Shown here in pieces: positions 39,888 to 58,164 of a stretch of DNA of 64,000 nucleotides (the stretch's first letter is position 1; every line of letters begins with the position of its first letter). Below the pieces are notes generated by a model. The model did no database searches and was not told the DNA's origin. It worked only from the letters and a program-made list of their open reading frames with translations. The DNA is from Halosolutus halophilus. GTDB taxonomy: Archaea; Halobacteriota; Halobacteria; Halobacteriales; Natrialbaceae. Where the stretch lies: contig NZ_CP094974.1 in the NCBI RefSeq assembly GCF_022869805.1, positions 1,116,001-1,180,000 of the forward strand, in the 5' to 3' direction. Position numbers and translations under genes: made by a program.

Positions 39888-39923
39888 TCGAATGTGCGCC
39901 GGCAGACGCCGGGGAGTCGAACG

Positions 39924-41099
39924 ATGGGGAACGAACAACTGCTCACGACGGCGGCCGACGAAACGTCCCGAGAAACCACGAAAGCGGTGTCCACGGCGGA
40001 CGACGTGGTTCTCGAACTGGACGACGTCGCCAAGCAGTACGGGAGCGAGGCCGTCATCTCGGAGCTCTCCCTGACCGTTCGGGACGGCGAGATTCTCACG
40101 TTGCTCGGCCCCTCCGGTTGCGGCAAGACCACGACGCTACGCCTCATCGCCGGCCTCGAGGAACCGAACGCCGGCCAGATCCGACTCGAGAACGATTCCG
40201 TCGCGGGGAACGGGCGGTTCGTGCCGCCCGAGGACCGGGGCGTCGGCGTCGTCTTTCAGGAGTTCGCCCTCTTTCCACACCTCACCGCCCGCGAGAACAT
40301 CGCGTTCGGACTGCAGGGGTGGGACGAGGCGGCCCGCGACGCACGGGTCGACGACCTCCTCGACCTCGTCGGCCTCTCGGACCACGACGAGGACTACCCC
40401 GACGAACTCTCAGGCGGCCAGCAACAGCGGATCGCCCTCGCTCGCTCGCTCGCCCCCGAACCGGAGATGCTCCTGCTCGACGAACCGTTCTCGAACTTAG
40501 ACGTCGACCTGCGCGTCGAGATGCGCGAGGAGGTCCGCCGGATCATCAAGGAGGCGGGCGTCACCGCCATCTCGGTCACCCACGACCAGGAGGAGGCGCT
40601 GTCGATCTCCGATCGGGTGGCCGTGATGAACGAGGGTCGGATCGAACAGGTCGACACCCCCGAACAGGTGTTCCAGCAGCCGGAGTCGCGGTTCGTCGCG
40701 GGCTTTCTCGGGCACGCGAGTTTCCTCTCGGGCGCGGTCCGGGGCGATCACGTCGACACCGCACTCGGCCGGGTCCTCCGCGACAACGTCAACGGCCTCG
40801 CCCAGGAGTACGACGGGAGCGACATCGACCTGCTCGTCCGGCCGGACGACGTGACGGCTTTCCCTGCCGACGAGGCGGACGAGGAGGCCGACGGCACCGT
40901 CGTCTACCGCCGGTATCTCGGCCCGACCGTCCTCTACCGGGTCGAACTCGACTCCGGCGAGACGATCGAGTGCATGCACAACCACTCCGACAGGATCGAT
41001 CTCGACGAACGGGTCCGGGTACGCGTCACCGCGGATCACGAACTCGCGTGGTTCCCCGCCGGCCAGCGCGAGCGACGGGTTCCGACGGCGGCCGACTGA
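39924..41099 (+). CDS. ABC transporter ATPase with TOBE domain (iron/polyamine type)
   Basis: The 391-residue protein has Walker A LLGPSGCGKTTTLR, Q-loop VVFQEFALFPHLTARENI, signature LSGGQQQRIALARSLA, Walker B MLLLDEPFSNLD and H-loop ISVTHDQEEAL, then a TOBE-like C-terminal domain (~270-385). The family contains Fe3+ (FbpC), spermidine (PotA) and sugar (MalK) importers. The iron-type operator upstream favours ferric iron. No permease or binding protein is adjacent, so its partners lie elsewhere. ATG 39924 gives the usual N-terminus; GTG 39894 would be closer to leaderless. Confidence 0.88.
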   Translation: MGNEQLLTTAADETSRETTKAVSTADDVVLELDDVAKQYGSEAVISELSLTVRDGEILTLLGPSGCGKTTTLRLIAGLEEPNAGQIRLENDSVAGNGRFVPPEDRGVGVVFQEFALFPHLTARENIAFGLQGWDEAARDARVDDLLDLVGLSDHDEDYPDELSGGQQQRIALARSLAPEPEMLLLDEPFSNLDVDLRVEMREEVRRIIKEAGVTAISVTHDQEEALSISDRVAVMNEGRIEQVDTPEQVFQQPESRFVAGFLGHASFLSGAVRGDHVDTALGRVLRDNVNGLAQEYDGSDIDLLVRPDDVTAFPADEADEEADGTVVYRRYLGPTVLYRVELDSGETIECMHNHSDRIDLDERVRVRVTADHELAWFPAGQRERRVPTAAD

Positions 41100-52759: not shown

Positions 52760-53602
52760 TCAACTCCGGCGAAGTGCCGTGACCCAGTTCTCGAGATCCA
52801 CGCGCTCCGACAGTGACCAGCGTCCCACGAGGAGGGACGCGAAGTCGACGCTGAGGTAGGCCAGTCCGATCCCCGCGACGACATCGATCGCCCAGTGGAT
52901 GCCGAGGTACATCGTCGAGACGGCGATACAGACCGCGAGGGCGACCGCGACGACACACCACTTCGGATAGACGGCTCTCGTCCGGTACGCGAGGAAGGCG
53001 ACCGTCGCCGAAAGGGACGTGTGAAGCGACGGGAAGACGTTGGTGTTGCGGTTGACCTGTCGCGTGAGGTGCTGGTACTCGGGGTAGGTGTCGTACAGCA
53101 ACGCCTGGACGAGTTCGGGCATCATGTTCCGCGGCCCGTACGCGACGACGAACGTGTACAACAGGAGACCGATCGCGTAGTTGAGCGTGTAGGCCGTCAG
53201 CAGTTCCCGGAGCGGTCTGGTGTTCGAGAGCGCGAAGTACGCGACCAGCGGAAAGACCAGCAGGAAGACGTACCCGTAGATGTAGATGAACGAGAAAAAG
53301 GTCGTCGCTGACGGCGTCGCGAACGTCTGTAGCCAGGGAATGAACTCGCCCTCGAGGTCGTAGATGATCCACGTGAGGTTCCACTCGATTATCCACGAGA
53401 GGTCGGGGACGACCTCTCTGGCGACGCTGTTGAACAGCAAGACGATCGCGAGCACGACCGTGATCGGTACGGCCGCGCGAACCCGGGCTCGCCACTCCAC
53501 GCGGGTATCCCGGAGTCGATACCGGCCGACGAAGACCCCGATCCCGACGAGGACCATCGCCGTCACGACCACGACGAGCTGTATGAGGACTCGCACGAGC
53601 AT
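52760..53602 (-). CDS. PAP2-type membrane phosphatase/transferase (copy 1)
   Basis: The 280-residue protein has ~6-7 helices and the PAP2_3/Aur1-like motifs: YGPRNMMPELV, PSLHTSLSAT (His194) and YLGIHWAIDVVAG (His236, Asp240), the lipid-phosphatase catalytic set. Members remove phosphate from, or transfer head groups between, isoprenoid or glycerol lipids on the outer leaflet. Its ATG overlaps the stop of the upstream solute-binding gene by one base, so both are made together. A second copy with the same partner follows on the chromosome (55443-56315). Confidence 0.87.
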   Translation of the reverse strand: MLVRVLIQLVVVVTAMVLVGIGVFVGRYRLRDTRVEWRARVRAAVPITVVLAIVLLFNSVAREVVPDLSWIIEWNLTWIIYDLEGEFIPWLQTFATPSATTFFSFIYIYGYVFLLVFPLVAYFALSNTRPLRELLTAYTLNYAIGLLLYTFVVAYGPRNMMPELVQALLYDTYPEYQHLTRQVNRNTNVFPSLHTSLSATVAFLAYRTRAVYPKWCVVAVALAVCIAVSTMYLGIHWAIDVVAGIGLAYLSVDFASLLVGRWSLSERVDLENWVTALRRS

Positions 53603-55356
53603 CAGTGTCTCACCCGGAGCGTGCCGTCCTCGGCGTACCGGAAGCCGGCGTCCTCGAACGCCGATCGGGCCGCCGCGACGTCGACCTCCCCGTCGGACCC
53701 GAGAAACGGCGTCTCCGGGTCCTCGCCGTCCCACGCGAGGGAGTCGGGCGTCCACGCCGCCGTCACCGGCGTCGCGATCGGCGTCGCGTAGCCGTCGAAC
53801 ACGTCGTCGACGAGCCACGCCTTGTCGATCAACGACGCGACGACGCGCCGGAACCGCGGGTTGGAAAACGGCGCCCTGCGCGCGTTGAACCCGAGGTGGT
53901 AGAAGGTCCACGACGGCGACTCGAGCAATCGCGTGTCGGGCGACTCCTCGACGTCGTCGAGGACGTACGTATCGATCGGTTCGCTCGTGATATCCGCCGC
54001 GTCGGTCTGGACGAGTTCGATCGCCGACGTGCTGCGGGGATCGATCTGAATCCGCATCGTCTCGACGGTCGGGGCGGGAAGATCGACGCCGTCTCGGCGC
54101 GTGAAGTGGTCGTCGAATCGCTCCAGGATCACGTAGTCGCGCTCGGCCCGGGTCGAAAACTGGAACGGCCCGCTCCCGATCGGCGGCCAGTTGTCCGTGA
54201 CGACGGCCTCGGTCGTCCCCTGTGCGACACTGACACCGGGAACGTTCGCGGCCGCCGATCGGGGCCGCCAGACGTGTTCGGGCAGGATCGGCACGGTCAG
54301 TGCGCGTTCCGCGACGGGCCGGTTAGTCGCGACGGAAAACTCCAGCCGGGACGGATCAACGACGTCGACCTCGTCGACGGCGCTGACGAGGCCGCGATAC
54401 CGCGGCGACGGGGCTGGCGTCTCGCTCTCGCCGAGGGTGGTGTCCGCGAGGAACCGGTAGGTGAAGGCCACGTCGTCGGCGGTCAGCGACTCGCCGTCGT
54501 GGAACGGACAGTCGTCCCGGAGCGTTACCGCGAGCGCTCCGTCGTCCCACTCCCAGGAGTCGGCCAGCCACGGCACGAGGTCCCCGTCGCGATCGGCCAC
54601 GAGCGAATCGTACAGCAGGTCGACGAACACGCCCCGTCCTCGGTACTCGGCCATGAGCGGGTTCGCGTTCTCCGAGGGGCGGGCGTCGGTGTGGGCGGCC
54701 CGGAGTCGATCGACGCCCTGGCCCGGGTCGAGCCCGAGATAGCCGCGTCCCGTCGCGGGGTGACCCTCGTCCCAGCCGTCGAACCGATCGGTCCGGACGA
54801 GGCGGTGTTCCTCGGGTGCACAGATGGGGACGAACGGCTGTTCGCGAGCGATCGCCTCGAGCAGGTCCGTCACCGCGTCCGCCCGCTCGTCCGTATCGAC
54901 CGTCCGCTGGGTCTCGAGCAGGTCGTCGACGACCAGGTTCGTGTAGCCGAAGGGGTTCTGCCAGCCGGACTCGTCGGTGTACACCGAGTGCAACGCCTCG
55001 TAGAGGAAGTCGGGATCGGTTCCGCCGGGGTGGTTGCCGACGTAGACGTCGAAGTCGTTGTTGATCAGGATCGCCCGAAGGAACTCCTCGTTCGATCGCA
55101 TCTCGATCGAGACGTCGATGCCGACGGCCTCGAACACGGTGGCGAGATCCCGTGCGAGACGGATGCTCTCCCGGTCCCCGTCGGCGGGGAGGGTCGTGAT
55201 CGTGAGCGACAACTGTTCGATTTCCTCTCGGTTGACGATGCTGCGGACCTGACGGACGCATCCGCTTGTCCCGACCGTCAGTCCACCCGTCGTTGCCAGT
55301 ACTGCTCGTCGGCTGAACTGTCCACCGTCGTTCCGGGCGAGCCGTCCCTCGGTCAT
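53602..55356 (-). CDS. Tat lipoprotein of the family-5 solute-binding fold (copy 1)
   Basis: The 584-residue protein begins with a Tat lipoprotein signal (FSRRAVLATTGGLTVGTSGC, Cys33), followed by an SBP_bac_5 (DppA/OppA-type) fold: WLADSWEWDDGALAVTLRDD, CPFHDGESLTADDVAFTYRF, LPEHVWR and LLESPSWTFYHLGFNARRAP. The N-terminal ~200 residues are arranged unusually: LSLTITTLPADGDRESIRLA comes first and looks like the C-terminal lobe of the family, so the domain order may be circularly changed. No ABC permease or ATPase is adjacent; instead a PAP2 gene is coupled to it. Confidence 0.86.
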   Translation of the reverse strand: MTEGRLARNDGGQFSRRAVLATTGGLTVGTSGCVRQVRSIVNREEIEQLSLTITTLPADGDRESIRLARDLATVFEAVGIDVSIEMRSNEEFLRAILINNDFDVYVGNHPGGTDPDFLYEALHSVYTDESGWQNPFGYTNLVVDDLLETQRTVDTDERADAVTDLLEAIAREQPFVPICAPEEHRLVRTDRFDGWDEGHPATGRGYLGLDPGQGVDRLRAAHTDARPSENANPLMAEYRGRGVFVDLLYDSLVADRDGDLVPWLADSWEWDDGALAVTLRDDCPFHDGESLTADDVAFTYRFLADTTLGESETPAPSPRYRGLVSAVDEVDVVDPSRLEFSVATNRPVAERALTVPILPEHVWRPRSAAANVPGVSVAQGTTEAVVTDNWPPIGSGPFQFSTRAERDYVILERFDDHFTRRDGVDLPAPTVETMRIQIDPRSTSAIELVQTDAADITSEPIDTYVLDDVEESPDTRLLESPSWTFYHLGFNARRAPFSNPRFRRVVASLIDKAWLVDDVFDGYATPIATPVTAAWTPDSLAWDGEDPETPFLGSDGEVDVAAARSAFEDAGFRYAEDGTLRVRH

Positions 55357-55386
55357 TTCGGTCGTAGTTGCACTTCGATGGTGGCA

Positions 55387-55403
55387 ATATAACAGTATTG
55401 TGT
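55387..55403 (-). promoter_or_regulatory. promoter of module 1
   Basis: ATATAACAGTATTGTGT (plus-strand reading) contains a TATA box (GTTATAT on the coding strand) 31 bases before ATG 55356. It matches 15 of 17 bases of the element before module 2 (58148-58164) at the identical distance, so the promoter was duplicated with the genes. Confidence 0.65.
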
Positions 55404-55442
55404 TGGCTCCCGGTGCGGATCGATCGACCGAACGACGATCCG

Positions 55443-56315
55443 TTACCGTTTCTCGAGCAGCCTACCGACCCGGGTTTCCACCGCCTCCCGGAAGTCGTCG
55501 TACGCGGCCTGGAGGTCCGCCAGCACCCCCTGGTCGACGATTCGATCGGCCACGACGACGCTGGTCACCGCGAGGACGAGGCCGCCGGCCACGTCGATCG
55601 CCCAGTGGATGCCGAGGTACATCGTCGAGATGACGACGCTGGCCGCGAGTACGGTCGCGACGGGAAACCACTTCGTGTACTCTTCACGGGTCCGATAGGC
55701 GAACATGGCGACCGTCGCCGAAAGCGACGTGTGCAGCGACGGGAAGACGTTGACGTTCCGGTTGACCTCCTGGGTGAGAAACTTGTACTGGGGGTTGTTG
55801 TCGTACAGCATCGTCTCGGCCACCAGATCGGGCATGTAATTGCGGGGCCCGTACGCGAAGATGAGGATGTAGAGGGTAACCCCGATCGCGTAGTTGAACG
55901 AGTAGGCCGTCAACAGCCGTCGGAACGGCCGCGTATCCGACAGCGCGAAGTACGCGAAGATGGGAAAGACCAGCAGGAACGTGTAGCCGTAGATGTACAC
56001 GAACGAGAAGTACGTCGTCAGTTCCGGGAAGGCGATCTCCTGGAAGACGAGGACGAACTGGCCCTCGATTTCGTAAAACGTCGCGGACAGGCGGAACCCG
56101 ATCTCCTTGGAGATCGTCGGCCCGACCTGTCGCATGACTCGATTCAACCCCAGCACGACGAGCAATACCGCGATAAACGGGGCGCTCGTCCGGATCCTGG
56201 TCCGCCACTCGCGTCTGGTCGTCGTGAGCCGTTTCCGGCCGATGAAGACGCCGATCGATACCATCAGCATGACCGCGACGGTAGCGATAACCTGCGTCAA
56301 TACTTCGGCTAGCAT
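55443..56315 (-). CDS. PAP2-type membrane phosphatase/transferase (copy 2)
   Basis: The 290-residue paralogue of the protein at 52760-53602 has the same helices and motifs: YGPRNYMPDLV, PSLHTSLSAT (His195), YLGIHWAIDVAGG (His237, Asp241). It has a slightly longer C-terminus (DLQAAYDDFREAVETRVGRL). Its ATG overlaps the stop of the upstream solute-binding gene (ATGA). Catalytic residues are intact in both copies. Confidence 0.87.
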   Translation of the reverse strand: MLAEVLTQVIATVAVMLMVSIGVFIGRKRLTTTRREWRTRIRTSAPFIAVLLVVLGLNRVMRQVGPTISKEIGFRLSATFYEIEGQFVLVFQEIAFPELTTYFSFVYIYGYTFLLVFPIFAYFALSDTRPFRRLLTAYSFNYAIGVTLYILIFAYGPRNYMPDLVAETMLYDNNPQYKFLTQEVNRNVNVFPSLHTSLSATVAMFAYRTREEYTKWFPVATVLAASVVISTMYLGIHWAIDVAGGLVLAVTSVVVADRIVDQGVLADLQAAYDDFREAVETRVGRLLEKR

Positions 56316-58117
56316 CAGTTTTGATTCAATAACCGGCCCGCGTCGTCGAGCCGGTAGCCGGTCACTTCGACGAACCTCGTTCTCGCCTCCTCGACGTTCA
56401 GTTCGCCGTCGGAGCCGATGAACGGGACCACGGGATCTACCCCGTCCTCGTCGTTCCACGCGAGGTCGTGGTCGTCCGGGATCCACTCGCCGGTCACCGG
56501 CGTGGCGACGGGCGAGGCGTACTCGTCGAACACGTCCTCGACCAGGTACTGTTTGTCGATCATGCGCGCGACCGCGCGGCGGAAGTCGGGTTTGCTAAAC
56601 GGCGTCCTTCGCCTGTTGAACCCGATGTGGTAGAACATCCGCGAGGACGACTCGACTTTCGTCATCCCCGGTACGTCGGGGATGTTCGCGATCGCACTCG
56701 CCCCGAGCATCGAGGCTGTGACGTCGGCGTTCCCACTCATGACACGTTCGACGGAGGACTTGCTGCCGGGATCGATACTGAACCGGATCTCCTCGACGGT
56801 CGGCTCGGGGAGGTCGACGTCCTCCCGGAGCGTGAAGTGGTCGTCGAACCGTTCGAGCGTGAGGTACTCGCGCTCGGTGCTGTCCACGTACCGGTACGGC
56901 CCGCTGCCGGTCGGGGGGATGTTGTCCATCGTGACGAGTCCCCACGTGCCTTGCGGAGCCGAGAAGTCGTCGTTACTGGAACGGTCGACGACCTGGGCGC
57001 GCCACCGGTGTTTCGGCAATATCGGGACGGTAAGCGCTCGCTCTCCGACCTCGGTTCCAGTCGTCATGGAGATCGTGAGCTGATACTGGCCGTCGGGATC
57101 GATCCAGTCGATCGCCGAGACGGGGCCCTGATAGCGGGGTGCCGGAGACGGCACGTCGGCCCGGCCGAGCGAGGTGTCGGCGAGGAACTGGTACGTGAAC
57201 GCGACGTCCTGGGCGGTGACCTGTTTTCTGTCGTTGGGTTCGCTATCGTGAAAGAGACAGTCCTCACGAAGCGTGACCGTCGCCGTTGCGGATCCGTCCT
57301 CGTCTTCGATCCACTCGACGTCCTTGGCCAGCCACGGGATCAGTTCGCCGTCCCGTTCGGTCAACAGTGAGTCGTACAGCAGGTCGATCGTCGTCCCGCG
57401 CTCGCGGAGAGTCGACGAGAGCGGGTTGAGATTCCGGGATATACGGGAGTCGGTGACCAGCGCGTGGAGTTGCGCCTCCTCGGCCTGTGGATCGAGTCCC
57501 AGATAGCCCGAGCGCTTCGCGAGGTGACCGTCTTCCCAGCCCTCGAACCGATCGGTTCTGGCGACCCGGACCTCGTCCGGGATGCAGATCGGGACGAACG
57601 GCTGTCGGCGGGCGATCGCCTCGAGCAGGTCCGTCACCACTTCTTTCCGCTCTTCACCGTCGGCCCGCCGCTGTTCTTCGAGGAGGTCGTCGACGCGGTA
57701 GTCCGTGTACCCGAACGGGTTCTGCCAGCCGGCCTCGCTCGCGTACGAGGAGTGGAGGGCCTCGTAGAGGAAGTCGGGGTCGTAATCGGCGGGGTGGCGG
57801 CCGACGTAGCAATCGAAGTCGTGCTCGATCAGCACTGCTTCCAGAAACTCCGCTCGCGACCGCATCTCGACGGAGACGTCCATCCCGACCGCCTCGAGGT
57901 TGTCCGCGAGGTGGGTCGCGATCTGGACGTTCTCCCTGTCGCCGTCCGCGGGGACCGTCAGGATGGAGAGCGAGAATTGTTCGCCTCCAGCGTCGTTGAC
58001 GACGCTTCGAACGCGGTCGATGCAGCCGCTGGTCGAGAGGGCGAGTCCGGCTGCGCCGGCGGCTAGGACCGATCGTCGGCTGACGCCGTCAACGGAGTTG
58101 GTCGAATCTCGATTCAT
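56315..58117 (-). CDS. Tat lipoprotein of the family-5 solute-binding fold (copy 2)
   Basis: The 600-residue paralogue of the protein at 53602-55356 has a Tat lipobox VSRRSVLAAGAAGLALSTSGC-type signal (Cys32), the same leading LSILTVPADGDRENVQIA block, and the internal segments DPDFLYEALHSSYASEAGWQ and NPFGYTDYRVDDLLEEQR. Compared with copy 1, long stretches are identical (roughly two thirds by eye). ATG 58117 is preferred to a longer start at 58156 because the promoter element lies between them. It is the first gene of the second module. Confidence 0.86.
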   Translation of the reverse strand: MNRDSTNSVDGVSRRSVLAAGAAGLALSTSGCIDRVRSVVNDAGGEQFSLSILTVPADGDRENVQIATHLADNLEAVGMDVSVEMRSRAEFLEAVLIEHDFDCYVGRHPADYDPDFLYEALHSSYASEAGWQNPFGYTDYRVDDLLEEQRRADGEERKEVVTDLLEAIARRQPFVPICIPDEVRVARTDRFEGWEDGHLAKRSGYLGLDPQAEEAQLHALVTDSRISRNLNPLSSTLRERGTTIDLLYDSLLTERDGELIPWLAKDVEWIEDEDGSATATVTLREDCLFHDSEPNDRKQVTAQDVAFTYQFLADTSLGRADVPSPAPRYQGPVSAIDWIDPDGQYQLTISMTTGTEVGERALTVPILPKHRWRAQVVDRSSNDDFSAPQGTWGLVTMDNIPPTGSGPYRYVDSTEREYLTLERFDDHFTLREDVDLPEPTVEEIRFSIDPGSKSSVERVMSGNADVTASMLGASAIANIPDVPGMTKVESSSRMFYHIGFNRRRTPFSKPDFRRAVARMIDKQYLVEDVFDEYASPVATPVTGEWIPDDHDLAWNDEDGVDPVVPFIGSDGELNVEEARTRFVEVTGYRLDDAGRLLNQN

Positions 58118-58147
58118 TCCAGTGTATATCCCTGATTCGCATTTGAT

Positions 58148-58164
58148 ATATAACAATTTTGTGT
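58148..58164 (-). promoter_or_regulatory. promoter of module 2
   Basis: ATATAACAATTTTGTGT (plus-strand reading) holds a TATA box 31 bases before ATG 58117, the same distance and near-identical sequence as before module 1. Confidence 0.65.

Follow-up and report, generated by a model that had tools for sequence, protein, structure and literature searches.

Two head-to-tail units on the minus strand of the 64 kb Halosolutus halophilus window, the whole stretch of DNA that was analysed, each encode a solute-binding lipoprotein (SBP) and a membrane enzyme of the PAP2_3 family. On the evidence of profile alignments and a structure model, both SBPs are circularly permuted family-5 binding proteins, a feature that had been overlooked in the original prediction. 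The SBP–PAP2 pair is real and old, and its two members are very probably functional partners. The best explanation as a whole, held with moderate confidence, is that the pair works as an outward-facing two-protein machine of lipid or carrier-lipid chemistry. What is new is the combination and the topology, each component being of a known family, and no paper on an SBP–PAP2 system was found in a literature search.

Layout of the two units

The features of units A and B are collected in Table 1. In both units the stop codon of the SBP gene and the start codon of the PAP2 gene have one base in common (TGATG), and the coordinates bear out the earlier description of tandemly duplicated lipoprotein and PAP2 genes with one-base overlaps. 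The two units are 55% identical in the SBP, 56% in the PAP2 and 68% in DNA over 2.5 kb. A Tat arginine pair and a lipobox cysteine are present in both SBPs (C32 in SBP-A, C33 in SBP-B), and the catalytic residues, described earlier as complete in both PAP2 copies, were indeed intact in the motifs GPRN, NVFPSLHTS and STMYLGIHWAID. Both SBP-A and SBP-B are preceded by a TTATAT box with its end 30 nt from the ATG, a spacing that would suit a leaderless haloarchaeal transcript, and the 14-mer CRCAAWAYTGTTAT, which includes the first four bases of the box, occurs exactly at both units, as expected from the claim that the two have the same promoter. The 5.06-Mb genome holds three exact matches to CRCAAWAYTGTTAT, the third of which (L267:1501-1514) lies, with a similar spacing to the start codon, ahead of a gene for 2-oxoacid dehydrogenase E1 alpha; a regulon defined by the 14-mer was rejected, given this third site and the lack of any clear regulon. 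A third SBP–PAP2 pair lies at 1.67 Mb in the same genome.

Table 1. Features of the two SBP–PAP2 units, in positions of the window
Feature	Position	Strand	Basis
Promoter element CACAAAATTGTTAT, 5' of SBP-A	58150..58163	-	Conserved in relatives, with similar spacing
SBP-A: Tat lipoprotein, circularly permuted family-5 solute-binding protein, 600 aa	56315..58117	-	Pfam; Tat RR14-15, lipobox C32
SBP-A residues 45-205: canonical C-terminal segment at N terminus	57503..57985	-	Profile alignments
SBP-A residues 206-600: canonical N-terminal and middle part	56318..57502	-	Pfam, profile alignment
PAP2-A: PAP2_3 membrane enzyme, 290 aa	55443..56315	-	Pfam; ORF
PAP2-A motif C1 arginine (GPRN, R158)	55842..55844	-	Alignment
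PAP2-A motif C2 NVFPSLHTS	55725..55751	-	Alignment
PAP2-A motif C3 STMYLGIHWAID	55593..55628	-	Alignment
Promoter element CACAATACTGTTAT, 5' of SBP-B	55389..55402	-	Conserved in relatives
SBP-B: Tat lipoprotein, circularly permuted family-5 solute-binding protein, 584 aa	53602..55356	-	Pfam, model; lipobox C33
SBP-B residues 45-205: canonical C-terminal segment at N terminus	54742..55224	-	PDB matches, profile alignments
SBP-B residues 206-584: canonical N-terminal and middle part	53605..54741	-	PDB matches; model 209-584 vs AppA 18-357
PAP2-B: PAP2_3 membrane enzyme, 280 aa	52760..53602	-	Pfam, model
PAP2-B motif C1 arginine (GPRN, R158)	53129..53131	-	Alignment
PAP2-B motif C2 NVFPSLHTS	53015..53041	-	Alignment
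PAP2-B motif C3 STMYLGIHWAID	52883..52918	-	Alignment

Permuted binding proteins and their transporter relatives

The two SBPs matched the SBP_bac_5 family (PF00496) with scores of 129 and 163 bits, the Pfam cut-off being 32.4, and the segment order in both was found to be non-canonical, with the C-terminal segment ahead of the N-terminal part and directly after the lipobox. When the H. halophilus genome was searched with Pfam, the stretch matching SBP_bac_5 profile positions 287-360 came, within one frame, ahead of that matching positions 1-273. Among PDB sequences, SBP-B residues 239-532 resembled residues 66-330 of a canonical protein, and residues 62-180 resembled residues 373-491 of the same protein; in addition, a profile of the N-terminal segment (45-205) was aligned by hhalign to DppA 389-513 (segment 62-188) with an E value of 1e-6. 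The swapped order of the matches implies that the lipid anchor is attached at a site normally internal to the C-terminal part, and that the old termini are linked. The AlphaFold model of SBP-B (pLDDT 89, pTM 0.86) presented a full two-lobed fold, in which residues 209-584 matched AppA 18-357 (Z 22.8) and the match stopped with about 150 canonical residues still to come; Foldseek and VIA follow the sequence order in their alignments, so the permutation cannot appear within one alignment. The same residues of the model matched NikZ, AppA and DppA with Z values of 20-23, which places the protein in the cluster C fold. The permuted order was present in all 113 SBPs of the 75 named loci drawn from the best 80 of 309 PAP2 relatives.

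The SBPs share with the cluster C proteins DppA, OppA, AppA and NikZ (PF00496) a sequence profile, an export signal, a lipid anchor and the fold (Z about 20-23), but differ from them in being permuted, in having a PAP2 operon partner and no permease or ATPase, and in the loss of the peptide Asp. The latter column, which we take to be that of the Asp holding the peptide N terminus in DppA and OppA, was acidic (Asp/Glu) in 0 of 24 PAP2-linked SBPs vs 15 of 29 transporter-linked permuted SBPs, making peptide import unlikely as the job of the PAP2-linked proteins. Among binding proteins tethered to the membrane, natural circular permutation has a parallel in the Treponema pallidum lipoprotein TpMglB-2 (Tp0684), a permuted sugar-binding protein of type I/cluster B (PMC4990184), although that protein belongs to cluster B, is bacterial and binds glucose, and is inferred to work with an ABC transporter (PMC4990184). 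Compared with type Ic, the TpMglB-2 kind, the SBPs have the permutation and lack the type I/cluster B fold, matching cluster C family 5 instead. No circular permutation of cluster C binding proteins was found in the literature searched, and their natural permutation, including that in dpp operons, offers a clean case for studying topology evolution in anchored proteins.

The original prediction that no permease or ATPase lies nearby stood for the permease, as no BPD_transp_1 gene was found in the 64 kb window and the nearest is about 107 kb away; one unrelated orphan ABC ATPase with a TOBE_2 domain occurs at 39894-41099, 11.7 kb from the pair, with no tie to the pair seen. With permease genes present neither in the window nor in the PAP2 operons, the SBPs lack the operon permease that marks the receptor of an ABC importer. 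Divergent full-length matches to the permuted profile were found in complete dppBCDF operons of haloarchaea (L086-L105), and one of the four dpp-type operons of H. halophilus carries a permuted SBP (L001:5671-7335); the canonical family-5 profile was built without this SBP, itself permuted. The permuted topology thus seems compatible with ABC import. These transporter relatives, together with the four dpp-type operons, would suit a reading in which the SBP is an orphan importer receptor that feeds a dpp-type permease coded elsewhere, the PAP2 dephosphorylating the nutrient before uptake. Such a role appears improbable because the PAP2 loci are without permease genes, bar one separate operon, because the PAP2-linked SBPs form their own clade and have lost the peptide-binding Asp, and because the PAP2 fold resembles that of lipid transferases.

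In the receptor tree, the PAP2-linked SBPs were recovered as one clade with a support of 100 among haloarchaeal permuted transporter receptors, deeper support being weak in these rotated, concatenated blocks. The simplest account is that the SBP goes back to an importer receptor whose importer was lost and which gained a PAP2 partner. The permuted receptors did not form one clade, and a single origin of the permutation was rejected by the AU test (p 0.009; 0.021 for the haloarchaeal receptors alone), with weak deep nodes and a simple model. This hints, tentatively, at repeated permutation in archaeal family-5 receptors. Two non-haloarchaeal loci of the same phylum (L256 and L257) encode permuted family-5 SBPs that branch apart from the haloarchaeal ones; an independent permutation is possible there.

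Pairing across haloarchaea

A scan of the genome collection with the PAP2 alignment gave 309 relatives, of which the best 80 corresponded to 75 distinct loci, all haloarchaeal. In these 75 loci, all 99 PAP2 genes lie directly 3' of a permuted SBP gene on the same strand; the one-base overlap occurs in 54 of the 99, and most of the others are no more than 11 nt apart. Genes for dppB/C were near only one of the 75 loci, as a separate divergent operon. Among 145 genomes of the order, with cut-offs of E < 1e-90 for the SBP and E < 1e-60 for the PAP2, both proteins were present in 82, neither in 63 and one without the other in none (0 and 0), although genomes were treated as independent despite shared ancestry, so that Fisher values overstate the significance, and co-occurrence of linked genes is partly joint inheritance. 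Both states, pair present and pair absent, were found within at least nine genera and were concordant every time. In six genomes (G074, G075, G082, G095, G103 and G110) the two proteins are encoded at separate loci and are nevertheless both present, and the three strong PAP2_3 genes of H. halophilus are exactly the partners of its three PAP2-linked SBPs. The adjacency in 99 of 99 cases, the single locus in 75 with permeases and the co-occurrence counts support the original prediction of a binding protein tied to a membrane phosphatase or transferase and not to ABC import; the two findings that would have spoken against it, a pair lying inside a complete opp/dpp operon in most genomes or a PAP2 gene not conserved next to the binding protein, were not encountered.

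The pairing is not strictly one-to-one, as some PAP2 paralogues stand alone and two loci (L070 and L071) have an SBP without an adjacent PAP2. Natrinema-type loci (L140-L157) read SBP-PAP2-SBP, the second SBP of the tandem having been kept and its PAP2 lost. The 39 upstream (A) copies all grouped as a single clade both in the tree of 116 SBPs (support 0.99) and in that of 102 PAP2s (support 0.98), and no B copy fell inside either clade. By these phylogenies, the unit as a whole was duplicated a single time, in an ancestor of the family, the partners staying in register.

Clustering of neighbouring genes revealed a membrane protein family of about 360-490 aa, termed C9, in which an exported domain with the invariant motifs LWP.TS, DG.Y.G.R.H.R.Y and WDWF.LRH is followed in the alignment by several hydrophobic stretches. 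Relaxing the threshold to E 10 brought C9 no meaningful Pfam match, and a resemblance to LssY_C is accordingly not claimed. The gene lies directly 5' of SBP–PAP2 in about a dozen loci from several families and adjoins SBP-less PAP2 genes in three loci. C9 was detected in 76 of the 82 genomes with the pair vs 3 of the 63 without it (145 genomes, counted as independent though related). In H. halophilus it is encoded at 4.897 Mb, far from the pair, so linkage is not the cause of the co-occurrence there. C9 is probably the third partner of SBP and PAP2. Five genomes (G154, G078, G066, G103 and G054) have SBP and PAP2 with C9 undetected.

Invariant residues of the SBPs fall mostly in structural motifs, chiefly those common to all family-5 proteins, and none could be named as a ligand site. 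Both this pattern and the tight co-inheritance would suit a scaffold or chaperone, whose fold has ceased to bind small molecules and serves only to hold or fold the membrane complex of PAP2 and C9. That the full two-lobed fold is predicted with high confidence and has been retained over large divergence, and that PAP2 paralogues occur without an adjacent SBP, makes this role a doubtful one.

The PAP2 enzyme and a possible mechanism

The two PAP2s scored 66 and 72 bits against PAP2_3 (PF14378; Pfam cut-off 27), and the catalytic residues R158, H194, H236 and D240 (PAP2-B numbering) were invariant among 48 sequences. The closest PDB folds to the PAP2-B model (pLDDT 91) were inositol phosphorylceramide synthase (9vj4, Z 18.7) and Aur1 (9ivc, Z 17.7), followed by LpxE (Z 16.1), the Bacillus PAP2 phosphatase 5jki (13.5) and PgpB (12.5), whereas sequence-profile matches to PDB entries, over short stretches, placed PgpB (E 5e-6) ahead of AUR1 (E about 0.01 over 65 residues). 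The predicted fold is closest to the AUR1 type, and a phosphatase or transferase activity is putative. Lys and Arg are concentrated in loops 1, 3 and 5 and the C terminus, a positive-inside pattern by which catalytic loops 4 and 6 lie on the outer side, together with the lipoprotein; from this charge distribution, we infer that the active site faces outward. An AUR1-like fold with an outward active site would be consistent with lipid or head-group chemistry; the rest of the original prediction, a remodelling of lipids in which the SBP presents the substrate, is putative.

The haloarchaeal PAP2s have the same core motifs as AUR1/inositol phosphorylceramide synthase (9vj4, 9ivc) and PAP2_3 proteins, which are their closest solved folds, but are about 15% identical to them, have an obligate binding-protein partner and a putative activity. 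Some database records annotate them as inositol phosphorylceramide synthase; synthesis of inositol phosphorylceramide is not known from haloarchaea. The lipid phosphatases PgpB, LpxE and YodM share the PAP2 fold and match in sequence with E values of 5e-6 to 2e-3, but have no binding-protein partner, and their C1 motif is KX6RP where the haloarchaeal PAP2s have GPRN. Alkaline-lake genera that carry the pair (Natronococcus and Natrialba) are poor in glycolipids, and a glycolipid substrate is for this reason not favoured.

In the proposed mechanism, each unit would yield a machine of two proteins at the outer face of the cytoplasmic membrane. Its first gene provides a Tat-exported, lipid-anchored, permuted family-5 SBP descended, as sequence, model and tree suggest, from an ABC-importer receptor; the second would provide an AUR1/PAP2_3-type enzyme, by the predicted fold, with its active site outward, by the charges. 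As obligate and presumably physical partners, probably together with C9, they would act on a polar, probably phosphorylated or head-group molecule that the SBP captures outside the cell and passes to, or receives from, the PAP2 active site, which would hydrolyse or transfer a phospho-group borne by a membrane lipid or by a polyprenyl carrier. The hand-over itself is the likeliest mechanism, though proposed with some reserve. An obligate pair with an outward active site might also be read as an enzyme with a ligand-sensing subunit, in which the SBP switches the activity of PAP2 (or C9) on binding an extracellular solute and delivers nothing, just as binding proteins act as ligand-sensing partners in the case of chemoreceptors; the two SBPs per PAP2 in Natrinema-type loci would suit two sensors with one effector. 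No sensory or signalling domain was found, however, and the outside loops of PAP2 are short for regulatory contact, which leaves sensing unlikely. Taking the machine with hand-over together with C9 and the permutation, a joint reading may be offered tentatively: a permuted cluster C receptor would join with a PAP2 transferase and C9 in an envelope machine, a new kind of binding-protein system in which the SBP delivers or withdraws a head group for an outward lipid or polyprenyl-phosphate transferase, without import, the permutation re-orienting the anchored receptor and having arisen more than once.

Binding proteins are usually taken as importer receptors, and database records name these genes ABC transporter substrate-binding protein and phosphatase PAP2 family protein. 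The co-inheritance of the SBP with a membrane lipid enzyme instead of an importer points to an undescribed surface use of a binding protein, and, should the partner be an enzyme of lipids or carrier lipids, annotation as ABC transport or nutrient uptake misassigns the function in scores of haloarchaea. The pair may also serve as a handle on archaeal outer-leaflet lipid chemistry, where enzymes are still missing; inositol lipid synthesis, for instance, includes an unidentified phosphatase according to a 2022 review (PMC9385802).

Other genes were found beside the pair. A divergent cassette of an arylsulfotransferase and a PMT_2-like GT-C lies next to SBP(-PAP2) in several genera, also on plasmids (L259, L260, L261, L070, L071, L075 and L078). 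The GT-C, a neighbour in Haloferax, Haloarcula and Halobaculum, was dropped as a part of the system, being present genome-wide in 18 of the 82 genomes with the pair vs 20 of the 63 without it; the arylsulfotransferase, which looked like a part of the system in the same three genera, was left out of it. At one locus (L067, G001:C1), SBP–PAP2 has a GT4 glycosyltransferase gene of the same strand on either side, and the one downstream begins about 14 nt past the PAP2 gene.
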